Below are positions 12,351 to 62,392 of a stretch of DNA of 64,000 nt, piece after piece. Positions within the stretch are counted from its first letter, which is position 1; every line of letters starts with the position of its first letter. A program made the translations under genes and the position numbers. A model generated the notes under the pieces. The model was not told the DNA's origin, made no database searches, and worked only from the letters and a program-made list of their open reading frames with translations. The DNA is from Halomarina pelagica (lineage in GTDB: Archaea; Halobacteriota; Halobacteria; Halobacteriales; Haloarculaceae), in contig NZ_CP100454.1 of NCBI RefSeq assembly GCF_024228315.1, forward strand, positions 124,001 to 188,000, in the 5' to 3' direction.

Positions 12351-12362
12351 CGACACACCGCG

Positions 12363-16125: not shown

Positions 16126-16267
16126 TAACCAATAGTACGAAATGTTGGTTTGTAAAGGTATGGATTGACGTTGGAGACTCGGGCTTGCTATCGCTCGTGG
16201 GTTGTGTCGTTGTTTGTCGGATTCATCCCACGACTTTAGTCGTAGGCTTTCTCCTCAACTTTCTGTA

Positions 16268-16587
16268 AGCGGCGGGACGGTGAAGACCACCGCTCAAGTC
16301 ATCGATGGTGCGGTACTTGTGGCTGCGAAACTCCATAGCGGGCGCGAGGCAGACCTCAGAGATGTCCTCGCAGTTGCCGAAGAAATCGACCTTGATACCG
16401 TCACGCCCATCTTCTTCGGGGCGACCGAGGTGCTCTTCGAGATCAACTGAAACACGGACTTTCGATCTTAGAAAGCGAAGATCTCAAGCACGGATTCAGA
16501 AGCGATTTCGGTGTGTCGACAATATCTACGGAAACCGTCGCGTCTCTCCGACAATATCTGTCGGAGCAGGTAGAGCGACTGGGTTAA
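16268..16587 (+). pseudogene. C-terminal fragment of a haloarchaeal nucleotidyltransferase-like (DUF6036-type?) protein
   Basis: Reads SGGTVKTTAQVIDGAVLVAA and GREADLRDVLAVAEEIDLDT, then loses frame. One missing C in GTCACGCC/CATCTT (about 16405-16412) restores HLLRGDRGALRDQLKHGLSI, ESEDLKHGFRSDFGVST and the natural end SLRQYLSEQVERLG with stop at 16587. The N-terminal part is absent, replaced by the tnpB element. The family name is from memory of haloarchaeal proteins with this tail and is uncertain; an intact nucleotidyltransferase-fold gene occurs at 46448-47317. Confidence 0.55.
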
Positions 16588-16717
16588 CGTATTTGATACC
16601 TGATTCGCGTCACGGTACGTGGAACTCAGTTTTACCCATTCTCGAAATCTGTACTCCGTCGGAACGAGACGTCCACTGATTGCTTATAAAGGCGAGATCC
16701 GGGTCTCAGAATTCCTA

Positions 16718-16846
16718 TTTACACATCGATGACGGGGGGTGAGTTCGACGAGTATTACACTCCGACGGTGGAGGGGAGAATCCAGGGAGGGTTACACATC
16801 GACGACGGGGCGTCAGACGTGCGGCTTACACATCGATGACGGGGGG
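16718..16846 (+). repeat. G-tract origin-recognition-box-like repeats without an adjacent orc gene
   Basis: TTACACATCGATGACGGGG followed by two more G occurs at 16719-16739 and 16826-16846. A shorter copy TTACACATCGACGACGGGG lies at 16792-16810 and a degenerate one at about 16755-16776. All are on the same strand. The design (conserved 15-base core ending in a G tract) parallels the boxes around orc1 at 25 kb, but the core differs completely, so a different initiator would be expected. Possibly the remains of a second origin linked to the partition operon. Confidence 0.5.
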
Positions 16847-16976
16847 CGTGAACCTGATAATTGGTTGGAAATGGCCTTGTTAAAACCCTTGAGCAGTGAG
16901 AGGTATCAACGGTCGTGCTGCATACAGGGCGCGAGTCGGTCAATAGAGACGAATGGGGACCAAACCTGTCGAGAGG

Positions 16977-17371
16977 TCAGGAATCGGACTCGCGGACGAG
17001 CCCCGGGGCAAGCGCGACGTAGTGAAGCGTCCAACAGTCCGACCACTTTGTGCCCACCTCGTGCCCGTACTCGCAGAGAATGTTCGGGCCATCCAGCCCA
17101 TCGAGTCCACAGCACCCCGAGGTCCGTTCTCGCTTCTCGTGGAGCCAGATATTGATCACATCGGCGTTGTTCAATATGAACTGCCCAACGTGGTCCTTAC
17201 GGGGTTCTCGTCCGACGTTGCCACGGTGTAACTACCCACCGGTAGATAGTCTTCGCCCGCATACTCCTCGAGCGACGTTACCCACGGGTTCACGAGTACG
17301 GACGAGTCGGTGAGTTTGCTGACTGACGCTGTCAAAGCCGCCTCACACTCACCGCACTTGAAGACGACCAT
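16977..17371 (-). pseudogene. Haloarchaeal hypothetical protein, split by a frameshift
   Basis: The start MVVFKCGECEAALTASVSKL (ATG at 17371) runs to a stop at 17171. Shifting frame at about 17178-17185 continues the protein as FILNNADVINIWLHEKRERT, then CCGLDGLDGPNILCEYGHEV, ending ALAPGLVRESDS at 16977. The joined product is about 130 residues with Cys pairs CGEC, CC and a single C that could bind zinc. The two halves join naturally at a single one-base indel, so it is a recent pseudogene or a read error. Function not recognised. Confidence 0.6.
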
Positions 17372-17620
17372 TGGTTAGACGGTTGTAGAATACGCGTGGA
17401 TATATCTTGAGCGGGGGTAGGCTCGGGTAAATCTACCGAACTCTGAACGACTCATACACCGAATCCAAGGCTGCTGAATACAGCCTCTGAGTCGGTCACG
17501 GCATTCCTAACAGGAAAAAGCAGCTCTAACTACCCGTGCTGAATGTATAACGCGAGTCGGTCACACTCTACAGTGAATGGATATTTGTATTCTACCCGCC
17601 AGAACATCGAAAAAGAACGC

Positions 17621-18073
17621 ATGTCCGAAATCACCGTTCGCCCCAAAGGGTACGTCGAAGACTGCCCCGTCATCCGTCAGATCGGCGAGCGAGACCTGTA
17701 TCTCGGGAACAAGCACGCGGCAGATTCCGGGCAGCACAACCAGTCGTTCAGGTACGTCGTTTCGGTCTCGACAGACGACTATCCATTGACGACACATCAT
17801 CATCCGCTGGACGACGGACCGGGTAACGACTGGACGGCATTTGAACGGGCTGTTGATACGGCGCTTACGCTCTACCAGCAAGACGGCTCGGTTCTGGTTC
17901 ATTGCAAAGCGGGCATTTCCCGAAGCAGTACGGTTATCGCGACGGTGCTTGCTGCTGAGGAATCCCGACAGCTCCACGATGCGCTCTCGATTGTCCTGCA
18001 AGCCCGGCCAAGCGCAACGCTCCATCCTGCCCTCCACGAGCTGGCAGTCGTGTACCTAGCTGCCCGAACCTAA
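17621..18073 (+). CDS. Dual-specificity protein phosphatase-like protein
   Basis: About 150 residues starting MSEITVRPKGYVEDCPVIRQ; upstream in-frame starts would add a tail unlike the family. The signature loop HCKAGISRS (H94, Cys95 nucleophile, Arg101) matches HCxxGxxR(S/T) of cysteine phosphatases, and an acidic loop (HHPLDDGPGND, residues about 65-75) could hold the general acid. It is small, with only the catalytic domain. The substrate may be a phosphoprotein or RNA 5' end. It stands alone, flanked by copies of the dispersed repeat at 17471-17563 and 18147. Confidence 0.8.
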   Translation: MSEITVRPKGYVEDCPVIRQIGERDLYLGNKHAADSGQHNQSFRYVVSVSTDDYPLTTHHHPLDDGPGNDWTAFERAVDTALTLYQQDGSVLVHCKAGISRSSTVIATVLAAEESRQLHDALSIVLQARPSATLHPALHELAVVYLAART

Positions 18074-18288
18074 GTCCAATCTGCTGAACTCATCCCCTAT
18101 ATCTCGCACGGCACCTGTGACAGGGGCTGGTGAGGTTTCTACGACCGTGCTGAATAGAGAGCGCGTATCGGCCACTGGCCATTCGCCTTTTGGTGAGGAA
18201 TCGGATTGATAGATACAGACGAGCGTTACAACGCTCAGCAATAGTTACTCAAATGGTTTTACCCTACGGAGCATTCACGGATGTATTG

Positions 18289-18735
18289 ATGCGCAAAACG
18301 GTCGTTCTCCCGAAGTGGCGTGAGTCTCCGTCTGAGACGCTTGACGAGCCCAACAGCGCGTATGCCACTATCACACATCACGATGGCTACAGGCGCGTCA
18401 TGTTCTCTGGGGGAGTGAGTGTTGACGGTGATCTAGCTGAACAGGTAAGAACCGTCTTAGAGCGCCGTCAAGCGGCGCTCCATGATTTCGGAGGGAGCAT
18501 GGACGATATCGTAATTACCCGGTACTACGTGCGTGAAGACCACCTCAACCGGACAACACAGGCTTCGATTCACGAGGCCCGCGACGAGTTTTTCGATCGA
18601 CCACACTACCCAGCCAGCACGATGATCGGGACTGGATCACTGCTGGTCGAGGACGCACTCGTCGAAATCGAAATCGAGGCAGAAATCCCTGACGAGGATT
18701 GGGAGACAGACGTGCTGACAGAGGAAGATCCTTGA
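18289..18735 (+). CDS. RidA/YjgF/UK114-family protein
   Basis: About 148 residues beginning MRKTVVLPKWRESPSETLDE; an earlier in-frame ATG at 18253 is possible. The motif VMFSGGVSVDGDLAEQ, then DDIVITRYYVREDHLN and YPASTMIGTGSLLVEDALVE are the conserved core of RidA-fold trimers. The classical deaminase arginine of RidA (in R-DL-PNV-VE) is not evident in that place, so 2-iminoacid deaminase activity is uncertain; it may be one of the RidA paralogues with another role. Located between repeat copies, with no operon partner. Confidence 0.75.
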   Translation: MRKTVVLPKWRESPSETLDEPNSAYATITHHDGYRRVMFSGGVSVDGDLAEQVRTVLERRQAALHDFGGSMDDIVITRYYVREDHLNRTTQASIHEARDEFFDRPHYPASTMIGTGSLLVEDALVEIEIEAEIPDEDWETDVLTEEDP

Positions 18736-18960
18736 CAGAAGGTACACTTACCTACCGACAGATTCGTCGCTACCAGCCTGAAGCGAACGATGATCGTCTG
18801 CTGCATACACGCTCTGAGTGTTGCACGCGGCTACTGGCAGTGACTGGAGAGGTCTCTGTGGGAGTGCTGCATACAGGGCGCGAGTCGGTCAGGAGACGGC
18901 GCTCTCACTCAATGCATCGGCTCGGGAACCACGACCGGTAAATCGATCCACGATTGACGA

Positions 18961-19245
18961 CTACGACTCGGGGGACGCCCCGACCGCGTCAGAGATCGCC
19001 TGGAGGTCGGCCTTCCTGAACGTGGAGTCGTCCGCCGCCTCCAGCGACTCTGCGACGCCGACCTGCGCTCGGACGAGTCGGCGCATCCGCGTCGTCGACG
19101 GTCGCCTCGCCTCGTCGACGTCGACCTCGAGCGCCTCACAGATTGCCTGTAGCTCCTCCTTCGTGAACGACGCCTTGAACTCCCGTTCGAAGCGACCCGT
19201 CGCCGCTCGAATCGCGTTCCGCATCTCGTGGACGGTCGGACTCAT
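18961..19245 (-). CDS. Small haloarchaeal hypothetical protein (94 aa)
   Basis: Starts MSPTVHEMRNAIRAATGRFE at 19245; upstream in-frame sequence is non-coding in character. It has two similar helical units, KASFTKEELQAICEALEVDV and DDSTFRKADLQAISDAVGAS, each with the pattern F-K-L-AI-A, suggesting an internal duplication of a SAP-like or small helical DNA-binding motif. Charged throughout, no signal or membrane segment. Not recognised as a named family. Confidence 0.65.
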   Translation of the reverse strand: MSPTVHEMRNAIRAATGRFEREFKASFTKEELQAICEALEVDVDEARRPSTTRMRRLVRAQVGVAESLEAADDSTFRKADLQAISDAVGASPES

Positions 19246-19363
19246 GAGTCCCCACTCTCCTGTTGCCACCCTCAAGCTTCCTACTCGGTAGCACCGAGCA
19301 GTGCAGAAGATGCAGATCGGATGTGATCGCTGACCATTGTTGGACGTATCCTCTGTTGAACGT

Positions 19364-20182
19364 TCAGAGTGCCTTGTCGATGTTGTGCGTGAGATAGCCA
19401 ACAACGAGTTCACGGAACTGCTTCCACCAGTGTCGTGAGCGGACGAATGCGCCATATTTCCGTTTAATGCGGGAGTTCACCGTCTCGTTCTTACTACGTT
19501 GTCCGTAGAGATCGGCGTCCAGTCGAGCGTTCCACGCCTTAAGAAGCGACGAAAACTCGCAGTGCTTGATGAGCGGTCGAACACCAGTCTCACGGGCTAA
19601 CGCGCGAACCTTCTGGTCGTCATATCCCTTATCTCCCGGGAGAATCGCTACTTCCCCGGTATTCCGCTTGATGAGCGACGGCGCGATTTGCGAGTCGTGT
19701 TTTCGTGCCGTCGTCACGTGTACGTCGAGAATCGCGTTCGACCTCGTGTCTACGAGAAGTGTGACTTCAGCTGCTGAATCGTCAGCTTCGTTCGCTTGGT
19801 GGTGTTTCGAGGCGTGACTACGGTCGACCCCGGAAGCGTCGATCCCGACGACACCGTTGGTTGGGAAGAGTGTGACCGAGAGATTGAGCAGGACGCGCCA
19901 AACCGCCATATCGAGCCGATTGAACGCCTTACATAGCGTTGAGGGTGACGGGAGTTCGTCCAGATTGATGGCTCTCCGAATCCGAGGCATCTCGATGAGT
20001 TCGTCTAGAAGCGTCCGGTACGTCGTATTGTTCCGAACCTTGAGACAGAGCAAGACGATATGCTGGTGGAGCGTGTACCGTCGTTTCGAGAACTTCGAAG
20101 AGTAACGAGCGACAGCTCGGCGTGCCAAGTGCATCGCTTGCTCAATAAACCGGAGCAACCGCGAATTCGGGAGGACTGCCAT
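19364..20182 (-). CDS. IS5-family transposase (intact)
   Basis: 272 residues, full length for haloarchaeal IS5/ISH-type DDE transposases. The DDE residues can be placed at GVVGIDASGVDRSHASKHH (first D), AILPGDKGYDDQKVRA (second D) and KNETVNSRIKRKYGAF (E). The N-terminal RFIEQAMHLARRAVARYS and PSPSTLCKAFNRLDMAVW are typical. The reading frame is unbroken, so it may still be active. Terminal inverted repeats were looked for within 60 bases on each side, but only weak matches were seen, so the element limits are not given. Confidence 0.85.
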   Translation of the reverse strand: MAVLPNSRLLRFIEQAMHLARRAVARYSSKFSKRRYTLHQHIVLLCLKVRNNTTYRTLLDELIEMPRIRRAINLDELPSPSTLCKAFNRLDMAVWRVLLNLSVTLFPTNGVVGIDASGVDRSHASKHHQANEADDSAAEVTLLVDTRSNAILDVHVTTARKHDSQIAPSLIKRNTGEVAILPGDKGYDDQKVRALARETGVRPLIKHCEFSSLLKAWNARLDADLYGQRSKNETVNSRIKRKYGAFVRSRHWWKQFRELVVGYLTHNIDKAL

Positions 20183-20303
20183 CCGGTCAGACTACCGGAC
20201 CAACCTGTAACTCTCTGAGGATTTAAACAGATCCGTCTATATATATGGTCCCAGAATGAGGGGTGATGATGCCTTCCATACGGCTGTCGTACCGACAGTC
20301 GAG

Positions 20304-21068
20304 ATGACTGAACCGCTGACGACGACTGACGTCGACAATAGGGCAGCGACTGACTCCAAGCGGGCGATTTCGGCGCCTGATCTTGAATTTACCTATCATA
20401 ACGGGACGACAGCTATTCGGAACGTGACCCTCGATATTCGAAAAGGTGAGTTTTTCGGACTCCTCGGCCCCAACGGAGCGGGGAAAACCACGCTAATCAA
20501 GCAACTCGTCACGCTCCTGAAGCCAACTGTGGGTCGTGTAACTGTCAACGGCTTCGACGCCGTGGAGCAGCCCGTCGCCGTGCACAACACTGTCGGGTAT
20601 ACCGCGCAGGACACTAGCGTCGATCTTGGACTCACTGCCAGAGAGAACCTCCAGTATGCCTGTAAGATGTACCGACTCGGCGGGATCGTCGTGGTCATCC
20701 TGATCGCCGAGTTGTTTAGTTTCGTCTTCGTCGCGTTCTCGAACATCGTTGGGCTCGTGACGCACTGCTCGGACGCGACCGCGCTCATAAGCAACTTCAT
20801 TGCGCTCCCGTTGGTGTTTCTGAGCTCGTCATTCATACCGAGGTCGCTCCTTCCAGCGTGGATCCAGACCCTTAGCGCGTTCAACCCCGTGACCTACGGA
20901 GTGACTACAATCCGCACCCTCATGCTCGATGGATGGATGTGGACGACGATCGGGCCAGCCATCGTCGTGCTCGTCGTGTTCGATCTCGTACTCGGAGGAT
21001 TAGCTGTCGTGTTGCTCCGCCGCGCCACAGATAGCGAGACTACGCCGAGCGTACGGGGACACCGATGA
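20304..21068 (+). CDS. Chimeric ABC protein: ATPase N-terminus fused to ABC-2 permease C-terminus
   Basis: About 254 residues from MTEPLTTTDVDNRAATDSKR. Residues about 30-125 are the first part of a DrrA-type ATPase (GLLGPNGAGKTTLIKQLVTL; Q-loop VGYTAQDTSVDLGLTARENL). At YACKMYRL/GGIVVVIL (about 20680) the sequence switches in frame to the last membrane segments of an ABC-2 permease (FIALPLVFLSSSFIPRSLLP; FNPVTYGVTTIRTLMLDGWM). Signature, Walker B and the permease N-terminus are missing. A deletion between two adjacent transporter genes is the simplest cause. The product cannot hydrolyse ATP. It overlaps the next gene by four bases. Confidence 0.8.
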   Translation: MTEPLTTTDVDNRAATDSKRAISAPDLEFTYHNGTTAIRNVTLDIRKGEFFGLLGPNGAGKTTLIKQLVTLLKPTVGRVTVNGFDAVEQPVAVHNTVGYTAQDTSVDLGLTARENLQYACKMYRLGGIVVVILIAELFSFVFVAFSNIVGLVTHCSDATALISNFIALPLVFLSSSFIPRSLLPAWIQTLSAFNPVTYGVTTIRTLMLDGWMWTTIGPAIVVLVVFDLVLGGLAVVLLRRATDSETTPSVRGHR

Positions 21069-50392: not shown

Positions 50393-52002
50393 TATGGTAT
50401 GTGTTTAGCCCGAACTGATTTCGCCACTGTCTCATAGGAAGCGCACAAGCCGGGCTGTATGTACTGGCGGCAGGGTTTCGTGGTGATCCACAGGGATGGG
50501 CTCCGCGGCGGAGCCCATCCCGTCACCCCTGCTGTCATCGCTGGTAGGTGGGATCTGTGAACGGGGACGATCTCACCAAGGAGGAACTGCTTTCTCGCTT
50601 TCTTCAACTTGAGCAGCGGGTCGAAGAACTCGAACAGGAACTCACTCAGAAGAACAAGCGGATCGAAGAACAGAACGAGCAGATCGAGGAACTCGAAGCA
50701 CGGCTTCGCAAGTACGAAAATCCACACACCCCGCCCAGCAAACGACGGTCGGCGACCCCTCGGTCGCCGACCTCGGACAGTGACGAGGACGACGATAACG
50801 TCCGTACTGACGGCGGAACACCGGGTCGGAACGACGGACACGATCCAGAGTGGCGAACAGTGTCTGATCCCGATGAGGAAGTTGAGGTCACCTGCGACTG
50901 CTGTCCAGAGTGTGGTGAGGATCTCGACGAGTCGGTGGGCGTCAGCCCCCGACTCGTCGAAGAGATTCCCGATCCACAGCCGCCTGTCGTCACCCGGTAC
51001 AACCGTCACTGCTACGAGTGTGAGTCCTGTGGAACCGCAACTGTTGCCTCACACCCCGACTGCCCCGATGAGGGGCAGTTCGGGGTGAACGTCATCGCAC
51101 AGGCCGCACTCTCCCGGTACGAGCAGCGACTTCCCTACCGGAAGATCGCTGATCGCTTCGAGCAGCTCTGTGGGTTGGAGCTTTCGGGCGCGTCCGCGTG
51201 GCACGCGACCGAGCGCGCTGCGCGCGGCGCTGCGATACAAAAAATCCGTCGCCACATCCAGGACGCTGATGTCGTCCACGTCGACGAAACCGGCGTCAAA
51301 CGTGACGGTGACCAAGCGTGGATCTGGACGTTCAGGACGGCCGAGCACACGCTGTACGCCGTCAGAGAGAGCCGTGGTCATGATGTTCCCGCGGAAGTCC
51401 TCGGTGAGGACTTCGCGGGAACGGTCGTTTGTGACGGCTGGACGGCGTATCCGGCCTTCACCAGCAACCTCCAGCGGTGTTGGGCCCACTTGCTCCGTGA
51501 GGCCGAAGACGTCGCCGACGACCACAAGAAGGGAGAGCGGATTCACCGATCTCTCAGGCAGATGTACGTCGGTCTCCAGGCGTGGCTGGAGACCGACCCA
51601 ACAGTCCGTGAACGGGCACAGATGCATCGGTCTGCCCGGGCCGAACTCACCTCGCTCGTTGAGCGGTCAGAGACCGACGGAGCAGTGGCAACACTGCTCG
51701 GGAAGATCGAAGGTGGGCTCGACCACTGGCTCACCTTCGTCGGTGAGCCAGCGGTCTCACCGACGAACAATGCTGCCGAGAACGCGCTTCGTGAGCCGGT
51801 CGTTCTCCGGAAAATCATCGGGACGCTCCGTAACGACCATGGAATGTTCGTCCACGAGACGTTGCTGTCCCTGCTGGCGACGTGGCGCCAGCAGGGACGC
51901 AACCCCTACGAGGAACTCAAGCGAGTTGCCCGAGACAACGAGATGATTTCACGGGCGCAAGCTGTGCCGGTTGTCGAGCCCTCGGGGTAAACACATACTC
52001 GT
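50393..52002 (+). mobile_element. IS66-family insertion sequence
   Basis: The transposase gene is bracketed by inverted ends: GTATGTGTTTAGCCCGA at about 50398-50414 and, on the other strand, GTATGTGTTTACCCCGA at about 51982-51998 (one mismatch). The ends carry the transposase only; the small accessory ORFs of bacterial IS66 are absent. No target duplication could be confirmed by eye. It separates the small-gene series on its left from the A+T-richer island on its right. Confidence 0.75.
50548..51990 (+). CDS. IS66-family transposase (intact)
   Basis: 480 residues, GTG start at 50548 or 50557. N-terminal coiled coil (LLSRFLQLEQRVEELEQELT; KNKRIEEQNEQIEELEARLR), then a zinc-finger region (CCPECGED; CYECESCG), then the DDE domain: VVHVDETGVKRDGDQAWIWT, GTVVCDGWTAYPAF, RCWAHLLREAEDVAD and NNAAENALREPVVLRKIIGT. 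Full-length and unbroken, so probably functional. Confidence 0.88.
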   Translation: MGSVNGDDLTKEELLSRFLQLEQRVEELEQELTQKNKRIEEQNEQIEELEARLRKYENPHTPPSKRRSATPRSPTSDSDEDDDNVRTDGGTPGRNDGHDPEWRTVSDPDEEVEVTCDCCPECGEDLDESVGVSPRLVEEIPDPQPPVVTRYNRHCYECESCGTATVASHPDCPDEGQFGVNVIAQAALSRYEQRLPYRKIADRFEQLCGLELSGASAWHATERAARGAAIQKIRRHIQDADVVHVDETGVKRDGDQAWIWTFRTAEHTLYAVRESRGHDVPAEVLGEDFAGTVVCDGWTAYPAFTSNLQRCWAHLLREAEDVADDHKKGERIHRSLRQMYVGLQAWLETDPTVRERAQMHRSARAELTSLVERSETDGAVATLLGKIEGGLDHWLTFVGEPAVSPTNNAAENALREPVVLRKIIGTLRNDHGMFVHETLLSLLATWRQQGRNPYEELKRVARDNEMISRAQAVPVVEPSG

Positions 52003-53181: not shown

Positions 53182-53757
53182 ATGGCTCGCTGGGAGGAAT
53201 ATGAAGTTAGCATGACTGAGCTGCGGCTCCAGTCTTTCAATCGGCCAGAGCCCATCTTCATGCATCCGAGATTAGCCCCTCGGATAGACCGCATTGATGA
53301 CTTGTACAAGCAATACGATGCTCTTGACAACTCCTTCTCCGACGAAGCCGCCGACCTCATCCGGACTCTTCAAGACGAACTTCGTTTGCTCTTCGTGGTC
53401 GCGAATGCCGCGTTCAAACACAACTGTGGGTGTATCGTCTACTGGGAGCTGTTTAGACCTGAACTCTGCACGAAGGAACTGTTAGACCAAATCACGAGTA
53501 CACCGAGGCCTGAAACGCTTGAATCGATGCTGTATCAATCGGGGGTACTAGGTGGGAACATAGTTGGAGACATGAAGAAAATCAGAGGGACTCGTCACGG
53601 ATTCGCCCATGATATGAGTGTTAATCTTGACTGGGATGGGGAGCTTCGGGAGATGGCTGTTCTTGCGATGCACATCATTGACATCCTATACAGCTTCGAA
53701 CCGCGACAGCGAATTGATGATTCTGACTTCTCCTGGACGAATCCCGATAGCTGGTAA
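53182..53757 (+). CDS. HEPN-like protein with RX4H motif
   Basis: 191 residues, mostly helical (IDDLYKQYDALDNSFSDEAA; LIRTLQDELRLLFVVANAAF; MAVLAMHIIDILYSFEP). R138-H-G-F-A-H143-D lies before the last helices and fits the RX4-6H signature of HEPN domains, many of which are RNases in toxin and antiviral systems. A Cys pair CGC is in the middle. It is followed by two membrane-protein genes and TcmP on the same strand. The HEPN assignment rests on one motif and helical content. Confidence 0.5.
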   Translation: MARWEEYEVSMTELRLQSFNRPEPIFMHPRLAPRIDRIDDLYKQYDALDNSFSDEAADLIRTLQDELRLLFVVANAAFKHNCGCIVYWELFRPELCTKELLDQITSTPRPETLESMLYQSGVLGGNIVGDMKKIRGTRHGFAHDMSVNLDWDGELREMAVLAMHIIDILYSFEPRQRIDDSDFSWTNPDSW

Positions 53758-53821
53758 AATATACTCGCGCGTATATAGAAAGGCCGACACGTTTACTTCT
53801 GTGTAGTTCTCGTGTTGATGT

Positions 53822-54055
53822 ATGAGCAACGAGGGAGCTCAGTTGGCACTCGGTATAGGCGTCCTCGGCGTGCTGGCGGTCTCGGGGGCGGGAGCAACGC
53901 TACTTGAAACAGGGGGGAGACTCTGGTCTGACCCGACCATCGGTCCACTGCTTCACTGGCTCGGGAACATCGTATTCCTGGCTGTGGTCTATAGCGTGAT
54001 GGCTGTGGCAGTCGCCGGGATACTGTACGCCTTCGTCAAACCATCTGGGTGGTGA
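53822..54055 (+). CDS. Small two-helix membrane protein
   Basis: 77 residues: ALGIGVLGVLAVSGAGATLL and WLGNIVFLAVVYSVMAVAVA plus GILYAFVKPSGW. It ends six bases before the ATG of the rhomboid gene and probably forms an operon with it; a GTG start for the rhomboid would even overlap. Could be a regulatory subunit or substrate of the protease. No family recognised. Confidence 0.65.
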   Translation: MSNEGAQLALGIGVLGVLAVSGAGATLLETGGRLWSDPTIGPLLHWLGNIVFLAVVYSVMAVAVAGILYAFVKPSGW

Positions 54056-54060
54056 AACAG

Positions 54061-54963
54061 ATGGAAACGCAATCGCCACTCTCCGAGGCAGTCGAGAACC
54101 TCCGGGGGGCGGCGAGAGAACTCGTCGATGGGGTCTCCTTTCGAGAGCTGCTGGGGCTGTTCGTCGTCATCCCAGGTATCCTCTTGGCAGTAGAAGGGGC
54201 TATCCAGAGTGATTACTGGCTGTTGGCGGGAGTTACTCGGTCGGATTTCTACTCCACGCTCATCGGCCAGCAACTGTTTTCAGTCGACACTATCGTCGAG
54301 GCGTACCTCTCCAGTGTCGCTCACCAAAACTGGGCGTCCCATCTGAAGGGGAACCTGATAGCGTATATTCTGTGCGTATCAGCACTCTATCCGATGGCAG
54401 TGTTGAGTCGAGAGAAGCGTCGAGTCGGTCAGGTGTTCGCCCTCGTGTTGGTGACTGCTCCGTTGTTCGTGAGCGTGATGAGCATCCTCTATCCGATGGG
54501 ACGACAGTCCATCGGGTTCTCCGGGGTCTTGTCCGCCTTTTACGGAATGCTCCCCGTGGTGACCGTCGCCGCGATAGACGTCCGCGTCGATACGGACTTC
54601 GACGCGTTCTGGTCTCTCATCGTGATGTTCACCGTTTACACGCTGCTGTTGGTAATCGTGGGTAGCTTCGTGTACGCGGCTGGCGTCTTCGCGATTGTGG
54701 CCGGGCTTCTCGTCTGGTTCCTGGTTCGGGTTAAACTTGATGGCGCGATGGAGGTGCTACGGGTAGCGACCAGCCCCGAGTACCCGATGTTCATCTGGGC
54801 GGTTACTATCGCGATTACGGGGGTGGGTGCGATGTTCTATCAGCTCGCCCCTGGAACGAACGTGGTCGCCCATCTCGCGGGGTATATGTTCGGGTTCCTC
54901 GGAGCGTTCTTGTTACTCGGCGATGGAGGCATCAGCGATGCGCTGCCGTTTGAGTCGGTATGA
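54061..54963 (+). CDS. Rhomboid-family intramembrane serine protease
   Basis: About 300 residues from METQSPLSEAVENLRGAARE. Seven or so membrane helices. The family signatures are visible: HQNWASHLKGNLIAYI (H-x-H-x3-N region of helix 2), GFSG with the catalytic Ser154, and HLAGYMFG with the catalytic His271 six residues before the last helix end. Rhomboids cleave transmembrane substrates. The N-terminal cytosolic helix is charged. In this island it may release or activate a partner, such as the small membrane protein encoded just before it. Confidence 0.78.
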   Translation: METQSPLSEAVENLRGAARELVDGVSFRELLGLFVVIPGILLAVEGAIQSDYWLLAGVTRSDFYSTLIGQQLFSVDTIVEAYLSSVAHQNWASHLKGNLIAYILCVSALYPMAVLSREKRRVGQVFALVLVTAPLFVSVMSILYPMGRQSIGFSGVLSAFYGMLPVVTVAAIDVRVDTDFDAFWSLIVMFTVYTLLLVIVGSFVYAAGVFAIVAGLLVWFLVRVKLDGAMEVLRVATSPEYPMFIWAVTIAITGVGAMFYQLAPGTNVVAHLAGYMFGFLGAFLLLGDGGISDALPFESV

Positions 54964-55042
54964 TGTTGCTCACTATCTGGAGCAGTGATGGTCTACAACA
55001 TCACAACGACCGTGAACGTTATTATCGCTCACTCCACTCCAC

Positions 55043-56083
55043 ATGATAATGCGGCAACCGGACCAAGCGTGGATTCGCAACCAGCTCCGCCAACTCACTG
55101 ACCACTCCGACACACTGTGTGAAATCGGCGATGAAGAGGTGGTTGATGCCACGTTCGGTCCCTGGACGGCGCTCAAGCTCGTCTCACTCACTGCGACTGT
55201 GGACGTCTATACGTCTATCATGGCGAACAACGGGTTCAACTACTACTACGTGGACGCCATGTCGGGTGGAGGCATCGTCAATCTCGACGGCTGCGACGGC
55301 GCGTTGGTGGGTTCACCTATCATTGCGGGCACTGTCCCTCGTGAACCGTTCGAGAAGCTGTACTTCGTCGAGGCGTCACGCGACCGGGCCGAAGCGCTCC
55401 GTGCCCGACTTGACTACGCAGTTGACGAGATTGATGCATTCAACCATACTCGCGACGACTGCGTGGTGATACACGGTGACGCGAACGAGGTCCTTCCAAA
55501 ACTCCCACAGATGATAAAGGAAGACAACGGGGGGACGCTCACGGGGCGAAACGGGATGGGCGGCGCACATCACCTCGCATTCATCGATAACGAAAAATAC
55601 GAGGTCAAGTTCGAGGCGATTCGGAAGCTCTCCACCATGCTAAACGACCTCCTCATCAATTACCAAGAGACATCTCTCAACCGGCAGTATGGCCGAATTC
55701 TCCGGGGCGACTGTGAATGGGACGACTTCCTCGCGTTCTTCGACAAACGCGGTGGGGTGAAACGGTTAGAAGCCCCCGAGGACCGCTTCGACTTCTACAC
55801 GAGGTTGCTCGAAAACATCGACCGCTCAGAGTACCGCTCTCTCCAAGTAAGGGGCTCGAACGCCTACTCCTACGCCTATCGAATGGTGTACGCGACTCGG
55901 CTAACTGGCGGTGGCAGTGAGTACGCTCAGTTCATGGACGGTCAAAAGCGGAAAATCGAAGGCATCACTGGCGACGAAATCGGGACCGTTCTCGATACGA
56001 TGCGTGGTGCGGGAACGACACTCGACCTCTGGTCTGCGGAAGAGAAAGCCGAGGACGGACAGAGCAAACTCGCTGACTACTGA
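55043..56083 (+). CDS. tcmP: Three-Cys-motif partner protein TcmP-like
   Basis: 346 residues (ATG at 55043, alternative 55049). YVDAMSGGGIVNLDGCDGAL then VGSPIIAG, YFVEASRDRAEALRARLDYA, VIHGDANEVLPKLPQMIKED and HHLAFIDNEKYEVKFEAIRK resemble TcmP: a Rossmann-like, methyltransferase-type core (D-xSGGG, FVE) fused to a helical C-terminal half with GRILRGDCEWDDFLAFFDKR. TcmP genes are known as neighbours of a three-Cys-motif radical SAM-like gene; here that neighbour lies convergently and overlaps by seven bases. The function of the pair is not established. Confidence 0.75.
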   Translation: MIMRQPDQAWIRNQLRQLTDHSDTLCEIGDEEVVDATFGPWTALKLVSLTATVDVYTSIMANNGFNYYYVDAMSGGGIVNLDGCDGALVGSPIIAGTVPREPFEKLYFVEASRDRAEALRARLDYAVDEIDAFNHTRDDCVVIHGDANEVLPKLPQMIKEDNGGTLTGRNGMGGAHHLAFIDNEKYEVKFEAIRKLSTMLNDLLINYQETSLNRQYGRILRGDCEWDDFLAFFDKRGGVKRLEAPEDRFDFYTRLLENIDRSEYRSLQVRGSNAYSYAYRMVYATRLTGGGSEYAQFMDGQKRKIEGITGDEIGTVLDTMRGAGTTLDLWSAEEKAEDGQSKLADY

Positions 56084-57129
56084 GACGGCAGCTCGGGCAT
56101 CGGCGTGTCTGGCGTCTCTCTTCCACCGAACGATTCTGGCGACTGGCGCTCACGCCACTCCGAGAGCCATTCGGACACACGACCGTCCGTGAGCTTCACG
56201 AGCTCTTTGTCCGGCCAGAGATGGATTGGAAGTCCCATCTCGTCGCCTATCTCTTGGACCGCCGAGAGGTGGGCGACCGCGTAGTCGACCCACTGCTCGA
56301 CGTCGGTGAGCGTCTCCAGATGGTTCGCCAGCTCCGGTTCCCCGGCGTCACGAGCCGCCTGGATGCACATCTGGAAGTTGCCCGCGCGTGGGTTGATGGG
56401 TTCGTGGAACACGACCGAAGGGTCGCACTCGGCTACTCGACCGAGGAGCTCACGAAGGTCGCCTCGGTCCATCGTCGGATACGTCGGACTCATGGAAACG
56501 AACGTATTTACGCCGAGTTCGTTGAACTCGTCCAGCCCACGGAGTCGGTGCTCTGGTGAGGGCGCGCTCAGCTCGATAGCAGCGACCTCGTCGGCGTTGA
56601 GGGAGGGAATCGAAGACCCGATGGTGACGTACTCCCCAGCCGCTTCGAATGTAGGGTGGTCTTGGAGCGCGAGGATAGGGTTTCGAGTCAGCACTCGTGC
56701 GTACCTTTCGTGCTTCGCCAGTGCCTCAACGACTCCACGTGTGATGTCGCCCGCGCGCCCGTCCATGTAGCAGTCTGTGGAGAACGAGATGCCTACGACA
56801 CCCGCTCCCTTCTCGGTCTCCTTCCACGTGTGCTTCCGACCGAGGTGAGCGTCGAGGCGCTCGTCGAGGCCGTCACGGTAGAGCACATACGAGCCCCACT
56901 CCTTCTGGGGGTTCTTCACTCCGGCCTCTTCTTCGAGCATGTCGGGTCGCGCGCGGATGTTGGGCGTGGAAGGGACGTAGCAGAACTTGCACCCGTGTCG
57001 GCAACCGGTGGCGACGTTCACGACGTAGTCGCAGAGGTGTTTACTACTGAGACTGGATTCGCTGAGTATGGCTTTGGTCGGGTCTTCCTCTGTCCGCACC
57101 CGACTATCGCGCTGGGTTTCTTGTGACAT
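56077..57129 (-). CDS. Radical SAM/three-Cys-motif protein (SPL-like), partner of TcmP
   Basis: 350 residues from MSQETQRDSRVRTEEDPTKA. ATGCRHGCKFCYVPS holds the CX3CX2C iron-sulfur motif (C43, C47, C50) of radical SAM enzymes. Later parts, GVVGISFSTDCYMDGRAGDI, VLTRNPILALQDHPTFEAAG, ITIGSS-like VTIGSSIPSLN and FVSMSPTYPTMDRGDLRELL, follow a partial TIM-barrel. The closest types are spore photoproduct lyase-like proteins and the Gp37/Gp68 (DUF5131) group paired with TcmP. Convergent with TcmP. A DNA-base or RNA-base reaction is a reasonable guess, not shown. Confidence 0.75.
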   Translation of the reverse strand: MSQETQRDSRVRTEEDPTKAILSESSLSSKHLCDYVVNVATGCRHGCKFCYVPSTPNIRARPDMLEEEAGVKNPQKEWGSYVLYRDGLDERLDAHLGRKHTWKETEKGAGVVGISFSTDCYMDGRAGDITRGVVEALAKHERYARVLTRNPILALQDHPTFEAAGEYVTIGSSIPSLNADEVAAIELSAPSPEHRLRGLDEFNELGVNTFVSMSPTYPTMDRGDLRELLGRVAECDPSVVFHEPINPRAGNFQMCIQAARDAGEPELANHLETLTDVEQWVDYAVAHLSAVQEIGDEMGLPIHLWPDKELVKLTDGRVSEWLSEWRERQSPESFGGRETPDTPMPELPSQ

Positions 57130-57368: not shown

Positions 57369-58358
57369 TCACTCGGTGGCTTGGTCAGTCTCGGTTTGGT
57401 CAGAGCCATTGAGCCATTCTTCCAGTCCATCCAACTCGCCAACCCATCGCTCTGTACCGCCTGCAACCCTTACTACTTCTTCTACATCCCACACACGCTC
57501 GCTAAGCTCGGAAACGTCACCACAAGAGTTGATGAGCGACTCGGCGGTGAACACCTGCTGAGACGGGAGAGATTGTAGCTCTGTCCGACGCTCTACCGGT
57601 CCAGTGTATATGAATGACTGTATCGGGGGGTGCGGGACGAGCTGAGGGTCGTTGATTCGAAGATAGATGTCATCTCCGAACTTATCAAGTCGACACCAGT
57701 ACAACTCCTGTTCATCCGGTTCGTAGTACTCGTAGCGATATGCGTCGTCATCGTTGTCACAGAGGTAGGCTTGTCCTTGTGTGAACAGGCAGAAGTCACC
57801 GTAGGAGATACGACCCAGTAGATTTCGATAATACTCGTGTGGACACGCGCTTGATACTCGGGGGTCACCCCGTTGCAGACCCCGATAAGCCCTATCTACC
57901 ACGAAACGTTTCGCGTTGACGTAGATACGCTGAAACTTTGTCTTCTGCTCTGTCTCTGTCTCTTTATAGAGGTCCTCTGCCTCTCGACAGACTGTCGTGC
58001 GCATTCGAAGACTTGGGCTGAGCGTCCTGTCAGAAGTCGCGTAATCACTCCATGCCTCAATCATGGCCGCCATCTGTTGTACCATCTCGACCGTGGCGTA
58101 TTGGTGGCGTCTGTAGTGTTTTAATTCTTCAACAAAGTCTGCAACTTCGTCCTCCGAACGTCCATCCGAGTGTTTAACCTCCCACAAAATCCCTGCTGCC
58201 GTCCGTTGGACGTTCTCGTACCAGTCAAACTTGTTGCGTCGCTTTTTCAATCTGTAGCTCGCCATATCCCCGATGATGCGGCTCGCTACCCCACCGACGA
58301 TGCCGCCGAGGACTCCTAGCACTGCCGGTTCAGTCAAGAGTTCGATTACATTCACCAT
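57369..58358 (-). CDS. Membrane-anchored protein of unknown function (329 aa)
   Basis: The N-terminus (AVLGVLGGIVGGVASRIIGD) is a single membrane helix followed by a basic stretch SYRLKKRRNKFDWYENVQRT. The long soluble part is helical (EVADFVEELKHYRRHQYATV; MVQQMAAMIEAWSDYATSDR) and then mixed (HEYYRNLLGRISYGDFCLFT; YEYYEPDEQELYWCRLDKFG). Many Tyr and acidic residues. The base composition matches the island, not the flanks. No family recognised; a cytosolic sensor or effector tethered to the membrane would fit a defence or stress island, but this is speculation. Confidence 0.68.
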   Translation of the reverse strand: MVNVIELLTEPAVLGVLGGIVGGVASRIIGDMASYRLKKRRNKFDWYENVQRTAAGILWEVKHSDGRSEDEVADFVEELKHYRRHQYATVEMVQQMAAMIEAWSDYATSDRTLSPSLRMRTTVCREAEDLYKETETEQKTKFQRIYVNAKRFVVDRAYRGLQRGDPRVSSACPHEYYRNLLGRISYGDFCLFTQGQAYLCDNDDDAYRYEYYEPDEQELYWCRLDKFGDDIYLRINDPQLVPHPPIQSFIYTGPVERRTELQSLPSQQVFTAESLINSCGDVSELSERVWDVEEVVRVAGGTERWVGELDGLEEWLNGSDQTETDQATE

Positions 58359-58711: not shown

Positions 58712-58978
58712 ATGGTTCGATGGCGCTATACGACGACCACCCACCCAAGTCCAACGTCGGTACCCGGCTGGATCGAGCAGGCCTACGAACGGCTCACTGC
58801 CGCCATCGATGGCCGACACGAGGGGTTCTCCCGCGCACAGGCACAGGAGTGGCTGCTGGCCGATGAGACCTTCGTCGACGAGCCGGCCGACGCCCGGTAC
58901 GCCGTCGATCACCTCCTCAAGCAAGGATGGCTGTACGAGGCCAACGGAGAGCTGCACATTACCGATCCCGACTACTAA
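58712..58978 (+). CDS. Small winged-helix-like protein, distant paralogue of the duplicated pair
   Basis: 88 residues. WIEQAYERLTAAIDGRHEGF, SRAQAQEWLLADETFVDEPA and YAVDHLLKQGWLYEANGELH form a helix-turn-helix with a beta wing, similar in plan to the 76-residue proteins at 30207 and 60327 (RGYLYEVNDRLYLTPG). The first 17 residues (MVRWRYTTTTHPSPTSVPG) are odd. An ATG at 58720 in another frame reads MALYDDHPPK, suggesting a small indel near 58750 in an original start region. Regulatory role plausible. Confidence 0.6.
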   Translation: MVRWRYTTTTHPSPTSVPGWIEQAYERLTAAIDGRHEGFSRAQAQEWLLADETFVDEPADARYAVDHLLKQGWLYEANGELHITDPDY

Positions 58979-59906: not shown

Positions 59907-60326
59907 TCGTAGTCAGTGCCGGCATCACCACAGCCATAGGGCGTTTCGAGATCCCGTCACGAACGAGTGAGCAACCATGGCTACCGACGGCGCACGGAGT
60001 TGACCACGCGACCATCGTCCCCAGACTGCAGAGTGACCGACTCCTACGATCGTTTTCGCCAGTTTTTCGCTTGCAACGTGGGGTACCTCCGTCACCGACA
60101 CGGTCCCCCCGTCATGTCCGCATACCCCTCAGAGATCGATCGGCAGCGCCACAGACGGCTGATTAGGACGATTATATCTGATAGATGACAGGATAGCCGT
60201 GAGAACGGGCCCCGCTGGGCCGCAGCGTGAGAGCAACAGGTGGCCAAAGCTTCAAGACGTGTTGCCCAGGAGAATATACTACCCAATCATCTAACCAGCC
60301 GATCTACCCACTCACCACGATCGCCT

Positions 60327-60557
60327 ATGGACCCTACCTCATCACGACAGACACCACTTGGCTCGCTCGCCAGCGACGCACTCGCGCAGCTCGAAGCGCC
60401 CATGCAAGAGACGGACGGGATGCGTCAAGCGATTGCACGCAACGTACTGCAGAACCAGGGGTTTACCGAGGCGGAAGCGGATGTCGCGCTCACGCAATTG
60501 CTCAGTCGGGGCTATCTCTACGAAGTCAACGACCGCCTCTATCTTACCCCTGGCTAA
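60327..60557 (+). CDS. Small winged-helix-like protein, duplicate copy 2
   Basis: 76 residues, MDPTSSRQTPLGSLASDALA to RGYLYEVNDRLYLTPG, with only two differences from the copy at 30207-30437. Exact spacing to the 59622 gene is kept between the two duplicates (705 bases start to start). Likely a small DNA-binding protein. Confidence 0.7.
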   Translation: MDPTSSRQTPLGSLASDALAQLEAPMQETDGMRQAIARNVLQNQGFTEAEADVALTQLLSRGYLYEVNDRLYLTPG

Positions 60558-60964
60558 CCCTGACGTCCTCGATGAACCGCAGCTTTCGACAGGAACTCTG
60601 CGATGATCACCGTCACGTCACCGTCGGTCGCTTAAGTAGGGGCATGCCACTGTGAGGGCCGTACCACGCGACCGTTGCCTCTCCCCCTGCCGGAAACTCA
60701 GGGTTATTCGTTAGTATTTCTGTCTCGTAAGGAAGATAGCGAGTAGCAACGATCGTCGGAGGATTAGTTCCTATGAAACTAGAAACTACGGATTCAAGAG
60801 CCGTATATGAGAGAACCACTAAACGGACGCTCGCTCAATCGTAAAGAGTTCTAACACAACTCTATGGGGTGTTTGGCACGTATGACACACGTGGTATCCG
60901 CAGCACACGAATAGAGTCGGTACGCCGAGGAAGCGATACTGTTTTGAATTCTGCACACGATCAT
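60558..60964. other. Intergenic stretch without a recognisable gene
   Basis: Right flank of the duplication; GC drops toward 60700-60960. It probably contains the promoter of the ATPase gene. No repeat noticed. Confidence 0.5.
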
Positions 60965-62392
60965 ATGATCATGCGCAGAACGTTTATCAACCGTGATCGG
61001 GAGTTCGAATTTCTCGATACACGATTCACCACTGGTGAACGGCAGTTGCTCGTCTTCTATGGACGCCGTCGCGTCGGGAAGACTGCACTCGTCACCGAGT
61101 TTCTCGAACGATGCTCGCGCGATCACGTCTACTTCCTCGCTGACCAGCGGGGTACGGACGCAAATGTGACCCGCTTCGCCCAGCAGTGTGCAGCCGCATT
61201 TGACGATATTCCGCCAGCAGTCGAGGGCTTTGACGATGCCTTCGAATACATCGTTCGGCGGATCGACGATGCGTTTGTCGTCGTGATCGATGAATTCTCC
61301 TATCTTGTCGAGGAAGACGAGTCGATCCCATCCGTGTTCCAACGGATTCACGACGACATCCTCGCGGAGACACAGGTGTCCGTGATACTGCTCGGCTCAT
61401 CGATTTCGATGATGGAGGAGGGAGCACTCAGCCACGAGAGCCCACTCTACGGACGTCGAACGGGACAGTGGAAGCTGACACCACTGCGCTTCGTGGACGC
61501 ATGTCGCTTTTTCCCGGCGTATTCAATCACCGATCTGATTCGCGTATACGCTGTCCTCGGTGGTGTGCCGGCCTACCTCGAGCAGTTCGATCCGGAGGCA
61601 TCGGTGCCCGACAATATCCGTGAGCGCGTTCTCTCGAAAGGAACGTTTCTGTACGAAGAGCCAGAGTTCTTCCTCCGTCAGGAACTGCGTGAGCCAGCAA
61701 CCTACATGGCGATTCTGGAGGCGATGGCGGCTGGCAACACGAGAGTCACCGAGATTGCGAACGCAATCGGTCGCGACGCCAGCGGCATGTCGCGATACCT
61801 GCAAAACCTGCAACGGTTAGAAGTCGTCGATAAACTCGTTCCCGTGACCGAGCCGAATCGAAAGCAAGGGATCTACACGATCTGCGATCACTTCTTCGAG
61901 TTCTGGTTTCGCTTCGCGTCGCCAAACCTCTCCGATCTCGAACAAGGGAACGTCGACCCGGTCGCTAAATCCGTGATGAGTGGCCTCAATGAACATACGA
62001 GTTGGGTCTTCGAGGATATCTGCCGGCAGGCAGTCCAGCATCCCAACTTCCCCATTTCCGTGTCCCGGACTGGGACATGGTGGTACGACGAAGAGGAGAT
62101 CGATGTCGCCGCTGTCAGTGAGGACGATGAACGACTCGTCCTCGGTGAATGTAAATGGACGAGTTCGCCAGTCGACGACGGCCTTCTCACGGCTCTCGAA
62201 GGAAAAGCGTCGAGTGTTCGGTGGCGTGGAGTGAATCGAACTGAGTACCTCGTCTTGTTTTCGAAGAGCGGCTTCACTGAGTCGCTCCGAGAGACCGCGA
62301 ACGAGCGGGACGATCTCTTGCTCTACGGTCTTCCAGAGCTGGTTACACTGTTCGATATCGAGACCACATCCGAGTCGGCACGGTCTACTTAA
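60965..62392 (+). CDS. Archaeal AAA/STAND-like ATPase with C-terminal DUF234 nuclease-like domain
   Basis: About 475 residues from MIMRRTFINRDREFEFLDTR. Walker A VFYGRRRVGKTALVTEFLER, Walker B AFVVVIDEFSYLVEED and sensor-like VILLGSSISMM form an archaeal ATPase core. A winged helix (RVTEIANAIGRDASGMSRYL) follows. The C-terminal part has EEEIDVAAVSEDDERLVLGE then CKW, a PD-(D/E)XK-like D-x-n-E-C-K motif of DUF234 domains. Such proteins occur in many archaea in mobile contexts; role unknown, with defence or recombination proposed. Confidence 0.85.
   Translation: MIMRRTFINRDREFEFLDTRFTTGERQLLVFYGRRRVGKTALVTEFLERCSRDHVYFLADQRGTDANVTRFAQQCAAAFDDIPPAVEGFDDAFEYIVRRIDDAFVVVIDEFSYLVEEDESIPSVFQRIHDDILAETQVSVILLGSSISMMEEGALSHESPLYGRRTGQWKLTPLRFVDACRFFPAYSITDLIRVYAVLGGVPAYLEQFDPEASVPDNIRERVLSKGTFLYEEPEFFLRQELREPATYMAILEAMAAGNTRVTEIANAIGRDASGMSRYLQNLQRLEVVDKLVPVTEPNRKQGIYTICDHFFEFWFRFASPNLSDLEQGNVDPVAKSVMSGLNEHTSWVFEDICRQAVQHPNFPISVSRTGTWWYDEEEIDVAAVSEDDERLVLGECKWTSSPVDDGLLTALEGKASSVRWRGVNRTEYLVLFSKSGFTESLRETANERDDLLLYGLPELVTLFDIETTSESARST

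Follow-up and report, generated by a model that had tools for sequence, protein, structure and literature searches.

A haloarchaeal TcmP and radical SAM gene pair with a clamp-like tail: a possible DNA-directed enzyme couple

TcmP proteins are defined by a neighbour that carries a three-Cys, radical-SAM-like motif. In the closest described system, the TcmP/three-Cys pair (PDC-M41), the three clustered cysteines belong to a DUF5131 protein (phage Gp37/Gp68); this was the partner in 17 of the 19 bacterial plasmid loci inspected, and in 7 of these 17 the two genes overlap convergently. In the literature searched, no published account of the pair described here or of TcmP function was found, nor any publication on DUF5131 with radical SAM; the passages retrieved mention TcmP as gene-table entries. 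Two class I methyltransferases acting on RNA, RlmJ (23S rRNA m6A2030) and Trm1, are also relevant; their motif IV reads DPPY and DPFG, respectively, and that of N-methyltransferases in general [DN]PP[YF]. In radical SAM mobile pair A/B (TIGR04470), two radical SAM genes are paired, and the Eubacterium eligens locus includes a MarR-type regulator and no TcmP. Finally, according to passages of PMC4929162, SplB-like genes have NreB genes as neighbours in several archaea, NreA is encoded in almost all archaeal genomes, and its C-terminal PIP sequence is required for repair.

The gene pair analyzed here was found in a salt-loving archaeon, within a stretch of 64,000 nucleotides (the window). The tcmP gene and the radical SAM gene, rSAM1, overlap tail to tail, an arrangement also seen in the convergent PDC-M41-type loci, here by seven bases (56077-56083). 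The five genes that the initial annotation had recognized here, their coordinates and the seven-base overlap were all recovered when the open reading frames were re-read (Table 1).

Table 1. Features of the tcmP-rSAM1 locus and its immediate surroundings (positions in the window).
Feature	Position	Strand	Remarks
HEPN-like protein gene, RX4H motif	53182-53757	+	191 aa; neighbour, outside the conserved pair
77-aa membrane protein gene	53822-54055	+	neighbour, outside the conserved pair
rhomboid-like protease gene	54049-54963	+	304 aa from GTG; neighbour, outside the conserved pair
tcmP	55043-56083	+	346 aa; TcmP family, class I (RlmJ-like) methyltransferase fold predicted
C-terminal PIP-like motif QSKLADY of TcmP	56060-56080	+	residues 340-346, read from the sequence
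rSAM1, SPL-like radical SAM gene	56077-57129	-	350 aa from ATG, CX3CX2C
orphan ORF adjoining rSAM1	57369-58358	-	329 aa; no family match over cut-off

The identification of TcmP was borne out by NCBIfam TIGR04474 (56.7 bits versus a cut-off of 53), and the protein also matches PADLOC PDC-M41A (E 1.9e-10). Its overlapping neighbour contains the expected three cysteines, as CX3CX2C, and the two genes represent a haloarchaeal form of the TcmP/three-Cys pair already named. A Pfam scan of TcmP gave no match with E of 1 or below, and hence no homology to Nre domains; a sequence search of the PDB returned mTOR chains only (E of at least 0.55), taken as chance. The predicted structure (pLDDT 79.2) has a class I methyltransferase fold, common to RlmJ and Trm1, at 13-14% identity. 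In VIA-align, Trm1 was aligned at Z 15.5 (rmsd 7.0) and RlmJ at Z 14.6-15.0 (rmsd 3.5-3.7, 214-219 residues; the best at Z 15.0 with rmsd 3.5 over 215 residues), with several O-methyltransferases within 1 Z unit of RlmJ; the Foldseek ranking starts with COMT. Residues D71, G75, G77, S91, E110 and D182 are invariant in all 15 aligned TcmPs. The protein thus combines the features expected of an RlmJ-like class I enzyme, a predicted Rossmann methyltransferase fold and residues of the SAM pocket. At motif IV, however, it reads FIDNE, which matches neither the N-methyltransferase pattern nor the RlmJ-like and Trm1-like forms, and we know of no catalytic motif of the form DNE at this position. The 29 haloarchaeal TcmPs fall into three motif IV types: DN[QE] (15 proteins), DP[KE]G (6) and DP[FY]G (8).

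The radical SAM assignment of the second gene was likewise upheld, with cysteines arranged as C43-X3-C47-X2-C50 and a Pfam Radical_SAM score of 30.0 bits versus a cut-off of 29.5. For the rSAM1 model (pLDDT 89.6), the first six VIA-align entries were all spore photoproduct lyases (SPL, SplB; Z 18.4-18.7, rmsd 3.3-3.6, 258-266 residues), the best at Z 18.7 with rmsd 3.4 over 264 residues, and the next protein followed at Z 16.3. In Foldseek, CysS and SuiB came first, and no SPL was among the best 50 matches listed. With the CX3CX2C clusters aligned, the structural comparison suggests that rSAM1 is folded like spore photoproduct lyase. The two differ, however, in partners and hosts, are 12-14% identical, and rSAM1 falls below the SPL family cut-offs (PF20903, 13.7 versus 27; TIGR03886, 12.3 versus 437.55). 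The H-donor cysteine of SPL is located at about C140, and the SPL/rSAM1 profile alignment spans the cluster region only. The partner in the window also differs from that of PDC-M41, which carries CX6CX2C in the four DUF5131 proteins aligned. As a DUF5131 member, rSAM1 gave no Pfam match and a weak comparison with a four-protein profile (probability 6.2, E 0.006), on the basis of which it may be remotely akin to that family. Its scores as a mobile-pair-B, PA0069 or Rv2578c member were far under the cut-offs, that for TIGR04470 was weak (36.9 bits versus 410), and PADLOC returned no match.

TcmP was detected in 25 of 391 haloarchaeal genomes, and in all 25 an rSAM1 homologue adjoins it, so that the co-occurrence claimed earlier holds throughout; by our own arithmetic, about 1.9 shared genomes would be expected from 25 TcmP and 30 radical SAM carriers. 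Conversely, 29 of the 36 distinct loci with the radical SAM gene also have TcmP beside it. Apart from the window, which lacks it, 23 of 28 such TcmP loci include another radical SAM gene (rSAM2); its usual presence in haloarchaea, the DNE form of motif IV in this TcmP and the PIP-like tail described below distinguish the pair from PDC-M41. The 36 loci comprise those of 30 genomes from the 391-genome sample (35 genomes matched in the radical SAM search, five of which had partial matches only and were excluded) and six further loci from a 26-locus search. The other 20 of the 26 were dropped, nine as partial or broken copies (all from Haloarcula) and 11 as duplicates of sampled genomes, recognized from the length and match of their contigs (L127, L128, L130, L131, L133, L134, L135, L138, L140, L141 and L142). 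Genes in the loci were called with a home-made codon score, and the TcmP of L080, which is broken, entered the counts with its C-terminal piece. As the loci share descent, these counts are not independent.

In the seven remaining loci (L102, L103, L104, L106, L109, L139 and L146), a profile that included bacterial TcmPs found no TcmP. In the tree, the radical SAM genes of L104 and L106 branch apart from the others; they have ribosomal protein S13 and KaiC-type genes as neighbours and may differ in function. The gene of L109, a 12-kb contig, groups with rSAM2. Among the neighbour families other than TcmP, the three most frequent were present in 8, 7 and 6 of the 36 loci. One member of each of these three was scanned: the first matched an HTH family weakly, under the cut-off, the second a phage integrase and the third PadR. 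Several pair loci are plasmid-borne. Among cyanobacteria, TcmP adjoins the Nostoc homologue of rSAM1, and no annotated TcmP lies within 5 kb of the Gloeothece homologue. A scan of viruses yielded one distant radical SAM protein (34%) with no TcmP found beside it, and a phage collection yielded five records with partial radical SAM matches (27-30%). No viral relatives of TcmP or of the HEPN-like gene were found by peptide-pattern scans, which divergent members may escape.

The initial annotation had joined the pair to the three preceding genes, as a defence unit in which a HEPN ribonuclease, a membrane protein, a rhomboid trigger, TcmP and the radical SAM protein would act jointly. HEPN proteins are defined by a conserved RX4-6H motif. 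This pattern was found in the HEPN-like protein, whose R138 and H143, named earlier, are both retained in all of the eight sequences aligned (that of the window and seven weak homologues). Moreover, the short gaps and the overlap between the 77-aa and rhomboid genes would permit a single transcript over 53182-56083. Profile scans of Pfam, PADLOC and NCBIfam gave no HEPN family match for the HEPN-like protein and no family above cut-off for the 77-aa protein; one HEPN-like homologue weakly matches HepT (16.7 versus a cut-off of 60), and the single PDB hit obtained by sequence had E 1.1. The rhomboid-like protein scores below the Pfam Rhomboid cut-off (19.5 versus 22.6 bits). Its serine and histidine exist as claimed, although the numbering Ser154/His271 fits an ATG start four codons downstream of the GTG; from the latter they are S158 (in GFSG) and H275.

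The surveys of genomes and flanks speak against such a unit. HEPN-like homologues (E up to 0.001) occur in 8 of the 391 genomes, including the host's own; the seven other carriers lack TcmP, and the gene is absent from all 24 other TcmP genomes. The sole close relative of the rhomboid (48-50%) is encoded in a genome without TcmP (G087). No homologue of the HEPN-like, 77-aa or rhomboid genes was detected in the flanks of the other 35 radical SAM loci of the distinct set, which span about 8-10 kb per side or less where a contig ends (6.1 kb in total for the shortest). The repeated adjacency that had been anticipated for these genes was therefore not observed, the outcome that the initial annotation had named as refuting; the other such outcome that it had named, loss of the R138/H143 pair, did not occur. 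The three genes accompany TcmP only in this window and for that reason leave the picture. The roles proposed for them, an RNase-like effector and a membrane protease trigger, found no comparative support in either survey. On the strength of these surveys we reject a five-gene system, which we consider extremely improbable.

The C-terminus of TcmP looks made to bind the sliding clamp. The PIP sequence is given in a passage of PMC4929162 as QXXhXXaa, and QSKLADY conforms to it except for the second aromatic residue, which would fall beyond the end of the protein. The motif closes a stretch (residues 323-346) that is disordered in the model (pLDDT <50). A strict form, Q..[LIM]..[FYW] within the last 15 residues, was detected in 21 of the 29 haloarchaeal TcmPs, including that of the window, versus 6 of 625 other called genes of the loci (a control set that includes the radical SAM genes, one of which, in L084, is among the 6) and 0.2 of 29 expected from shuffled tails. 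The leucine of the motif, L343, shows no variation among the 15 TcmPs aligned, which represent all three motif IV types. The eight proteins without the strict motif are those of the DP[FY]G type, which lack its Q. Clustering of the 28 intact TcmPs at 50% identity gives 13 groups, eight in which all members have the motif and five without it. Two of the TcmP-less loci also include clamp-related genes: in L139 the radical SAM gene is next to a gene for an Eco57I-type N6-methyltransferase that ends in QSGLGAW, and in L146 it is followed by a gene with a PCNA domain, additional to the stronger PCNA match found elsewhere in that genome. A clamp link was recognized in none of the other five.

Similarly, a beta-clamp-like pentapeptide occurs in 10 of 23 bacterial TcmPs, by a permissive pattern and with several close relatives among the ten (shuffle mean 3.3; 0 of 1000 shuffles reach 10), and in none of 17 DUF5131 partners. 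Most actinobacterial TcmPs lack it. The bacterial set of 23 TcmPs derives from 19 loci, from one Nostoc record and from 18 of the 33 bacterial entries in a set of 36 plasmid records (the other three being haloarchaeal). Both the haloarchaeal and the bacterial patterns were set after the motifs had been noticed in a first subset; outside the seven bacterial proteins first inspected, the count is 6 of 16.

Loci with closely similar radical SAM genes may carry very different TcmPs. Radical SAM cores that share 78-89% identity in DNA precede TcmPs that share no more than 32%, and the DNA match stops near the rSAM1 stop codon. Some DP[FY]G-type TcmPs, although without the Q of the tail motif, are paired with nearly identical rSAM1 proteins. 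TcmP would then be the exchangeable part, and the radical SAM protein the constant machinery.

New with respect to the described systems are the SPL-like fold match, the RlmJ-like TcmP fold, the clamp-like tails and the exchange of TcmP behind a constant core. The clamp-like tail and the SPL-like radical enzyme suggest a role of the pair in the alteration or repair of DNA bases, and the base-modifying or repair function inferred initially is in keeping with both folds and with the motif. In the explanation we favour, tentatively and at somewhat less than an even chance, tcmP and rSAM1 encode a two-protein, clamp-tethered enzyme pair that modifies or repairs bases in DNA. TcmP would dock on the sliding clamp, PCNA, via its C-terminal tail; its RlmJ-like domain, with the SAM-pocket residues, would engage a base in the clamp-loaded DNA and perhaps methylate or flip it; and the SPL-like enzyme would perform 5'-deoxyadenosyl-radical chemistry on that base. 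The net effect would be base modification or lesion reversal in newly replicated or repaired DNA, with the exchangeable TcmP setting the substrate. Chemistry on DNA bases that is linked to the sliding clamp is thus a testable hypothesis, and it would bear on a question raised in passages of PMC4929162, namely the role of archaeal SplB-like proteins and why some of them adjoin Nre genes. A wider form, clamp-guided base editing shared by archaea and bacteria, is rather unlikely: exchangeable, methyltransferase-like TcmP adaptors would bring an SPL-like enzyme to replicating DNA, either to write a new mark or to destroy foreign or damaged bases. It is equally doubtful that the link would be made by PIP tails in haloarchaea, by beta-clamp motifs in some bacteria and, rarely, by an N6-methyltransferase or a private PCNA, and a similarly modest chance attaches to specificity being set by swapping TcmP.

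A narrower form of the favoured reading, to which we give a rather low probability, is dedicated DNA repair: the pair would reverse cross-links or dimer lesions as a mobile counterpart of the Nre/SplB-like couple, with no epigenetic or immune role. The SPL-like fold, the clamp-like motif and the Nre/SplB precedent agree with it, as does a B. glumae plasmid locus in which TcmP lies between error-prone DNA polymerase and dTMP kinase genes. Yet the SPL family models are not passed by rSAM1, and a patchy distribution (25/391) with exchange of TcmP is unusual for housekeeping repair; unlike NreA, the pair is scattered and often plasmid-borne. The exchange behind a constant core would sit well with action against viruses or plasmids, TcmP recognizing or altering foreign DNA as it replicates, with the chemistry supplied by the radical SAM protein. 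The listing of TcmP as phage-defence candidate PDC-M41A and the plasmid loci agree with this, as does an integrase-like family found near 7 of the 36 loci. BREX, NACHT and type ISP restriction-modification genes are neighbours in single bacterial loci, which may also reflect their general frequency on plasmids. The PADLOC entry is a candidate only, however, and its profiles do not match the radical SAM protein, and we judge this role unlikely. RNA as the substrate, with TcmP a relative of rRNA or tRNA methyltransferases and the radical SAM protein completing a hypermodified base, is suggested by RlmJ and Trm1, which lead the VIA-align list for TcmP. It is difficult to reconcile with the PIP-like and beta-clamp-like motifs, the SPL-like partner and the N6 DNA methyltransferase or PCNA gene found at the partner position (one locus each), and appears decidedly improbable.

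The surroundings of the pair correspond in part to the initial description. The five genes are not all A+T-richer than the flanks, as had been stated: flank G+C is 0.602 (31-50 kb), 0.590 (45-50.5 kb) and 0.581 (58.4-64 kb), versus 0.617 for the radical SAM gene and 0.603 for the 77-aa gene. Only the HEPN-like gene (0.505) is clearly below the flanks, the TcmP (0.568) and rhomboid (0.578) genes being mildly so. The 329-aa orphan has no homologue in the fetched radical SAM loci. At the left border a transposase is encoded at 50548-51990, for which the name IS66 is that of the earlier reader. The duplication reported at the right border was not recovered in the DNA, no repeat of at least 25 nt above ~78% identity being found within 50-64 kb; two small ORFs, at 58712-58978 and 60240-60557, resemble each other as proteins only, as judged by eye.

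The five open reading frames proposed by the initial annotation as one unit (HEPN-like protein, 77-aa protein, rhomboid, TcmP and radical SAM protein) and the 7-base tail-to-tail overlap of the last two genes were confirmed in the sequence. TcmP passed its curated family model, and the radical SAM protein (rSAM1) passed the Pfam radical SAM model by a narrow margin; the rhomboid scored slightly below the Pfam cut-off, and the HEPN-like protein gave no match in the family model search. Residues R138 and H143 of the latter were kept in all eight aligned sequences, its own counted. The proposed A+T enrichment relative to the flanks does not apply to the radical SAM and 77-aa genes, and so not to the block as a whole.

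Among 391 haloarchaeal genomes, a TcmP profile search detected TcmP in 25, and in all 25 the radical SAM gene is adjacent to it. Full-length homologues of the radical SAM gene were present in 30 genomes (35 when partial matches are counted). Adding six further loci from a named genome collection gives 36 distinct loci of the radical SAM gene. TcmP adjoins that gene in 29 of them, at a spacing of -17 to 117 bases, and at 14 of these 29 the two genes are convergent, as in the window. Homologues of the HEPN-like protein occurred in eight genomes, the window's own included, and the other seven are all outside the TcmP genomes, so that no other TcmP genome carries one. The sole close relative of the rhomboid also lies in a genome lacking TcmP; less closely related rhomboids are widespread (146 of 391 genomes). 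Since these homologues occur apart from TcmP, and the flanks of the 35 remaining radical SAM loci yielded no homologue of either gene, the five-gene unit is unsupported.

Coordinates of features in the window and in individually fetched loci (L-numbers)
Feature	Location	Strand	Remarks
HEPN-like gene	window 53182-53757
77-aa protein gene	window 53822-54055
Rhomboid gene	window 54049-54963
tcmP	window 55043-56083	+	346 aa
rSAM1	window 57129-56077	-	350 aa
Orphan gene	window 57369-58358		329 aa, adjoins rSAM1; no family above cut-off, no homologue within the fetched loci
ATPase_2/DUF234 gene	window 60869-62392		weak C-terminal Mrr-like match
Lower-G+C block	window 11001-21000		G+C 0.51-0.58; adjoining stretches 0.63 and more
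Broken TcmP gene	L080:9327-10181		transposase-bearing insertion, codons around residue 188
DNA match to L098	L083:8222-10715		88.6%
N6 adenine methyltransferase gene, Halorientalis persicus	L139:6973-9050		Eco57I-type, tail QSGLGAW; at TcmP position; overlaps radical SAM gene if first starts are used
Radical SAM homologue, then second PCNA-domain gene, Halosimplex pelagicum	L146:7995-10554		no TcmP; PCNA-domain protein with long acidic N-terminal part
TcmP, DUF5131, TcmP and another radical SAM gene, Burkholderia glumae plasmid	L181:1-6107		flanked by error-prone DNA polymerase and dTMP kinase genes

Of the 29 TcmP loci, 23 carry an additional radical SAM gene (rSAM2) whose identity to that of the window is mostly 46-51%, and in 15 of the 23 it is divergent from and adjoins rSAM1. 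It is missing in the window, whose genome gave a single radical SAM match (search E up to 1e-30). In several Haloarcula genomes (L144, L145, L147-L152), fragments code only for the C-terminal half of the radical SAM family (open reading frames of about 149-208 aa); H. argentinensis carries several per genome.

TcmP is exchanged behind a constant radical SAM core. Three TcmP types were distinguished by motif IV, namely DP[FY]G (n=8), DP[KE]G (n=6) and DN[QE] (n=15), the last including the window TcmP. Eight locus pairs were picked to display the contrast between like and unlike TcmPs. In the Haloarcula pair L083/L098, rSAM1 is 93% identical and TcmP 22%; for L098/L099 the values are 94% and 28%. 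The L083/L098 DNA match covers rSAM2 and rSAM1 until 76 bases before the rSAM1 end, stopping short of TcmP. In six pairs (L098/L099, L083/L082, L099/L079, L083/L099, L097/L092 and L097/L090), with TcmPs at most 32% identical, the match (78-88%) ends 20-85 bases before the rSAM1 end, while in L092/L090, whose TcmPs are alike (89% identical), it runs through TcmP.

The window TcmP terminates in DGQSKLADY. Of 29 haloarchaeal TcmPs, 21 carry the motif Q..[LIM]..[FYW] within their final 15 residues, against 0.2 of 29 in shuffled tails and 6 of 625 other called genes at the same loci. By type, it occurs in 15/15 DN[QE], 6/6 DP[KE]G and 0/8 DP[FY]G proteins; by eye, seven of these eight end with L..F, the Q being missing. 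An alignment of 15 TcmPs covering all types has 11 invariant columns, and the leucine of the motif occupies one of them. The window tail fits the PIP definition of PMC4929162, QXXhXXaa, except that the second aromatic residue is missing. One of the 6 other motif-bearing genes is the Halorientalis persicus N6-methyltransferase gene, which adjoins rSAM1 at a locus without TcmP. Halosimplex pelagicum has its stronger PCNA match elsewhere than L146; the window's genome has one PCNA match. No clamp link was recognised at the other five TcmP-less loci.

At 17 of the 19 bacterial plasmid loci read, an annotated DUF5131 (Gp37/Gp68) gene lies near TcmP, with the convergent overlap of the window pair in 7 of the 17. 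The Arthrobacter TcmP neighbour, annotated as hypothetical, resembles by eye a shortened DUF5131. In Nostoc, the TcmP partner is a radical SAM protein homologous to the window's (37%), not DUF5131, and the locus adjoins BREX genes; near the second cyanobacterial radical SAM homologue, in Gloeothece, there was no annotated TcmP. A pattern resembling the beta-clamp consensus, set after three examples were noticed in the first seven bacterial TcmPs, occurs in 10 of 23 (6 of the 16 remaining proteins; shuffle mean 3.3, none of 1000 shuffles reaching 10) and in none of 17 DUF5131 proteins. Because the 10 include several closely related proteins, this putative clamp motif is supporting rather than decisive.

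The TcmP model (mean pLDDT 79.2) is a class I methyltransferase. VIA-align matched it to RlmJ (Z 14.6-15.0, rmsd 3.5-3.7) and Trm1 (Z 15.5, rmsd 7.0), with several O-methyltransferases within 1 Z and hence tied; in the Foldseek order COMT comes first, and RlmJ family entries are fourth and eleventh. For the radical SAM model (pLDDT 89.6), six spore photoproduct lyase (SPL) entries led in VIA-align (Z 18.4-18.7, rmsd 3.3-3.6), followed by SuiB (16.3); in Foldseek, CysS and SuiB led, and SPL was absent from the best 50 rows. A common fold, SPL-like or RlmJ-like, is no proof of a common substrate.

Most simply, TcmP and the radical SAM protein can be read as a DNA-directed pair tethered to the clamp. 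TcmP would carry its methyltransferase-fold domain to clamp-loaded DNA, where the SPL-like enzyme would perform radical chemistry on a base; the outcome may be a mark, repair or attack on foreign DNA. No publication on TcmP function, a clamp motif in TcmP or the haloarchaeal layout was found in a literature search excluding most subscription journals and all preprints. The TcmP/three-Cys association already bears a name, and TcmP is among the defence candidates of PADLOC, so the window pair is a variant of that association. Elsewhere in the window, the lower-G+C block is perhaps another inserted region.
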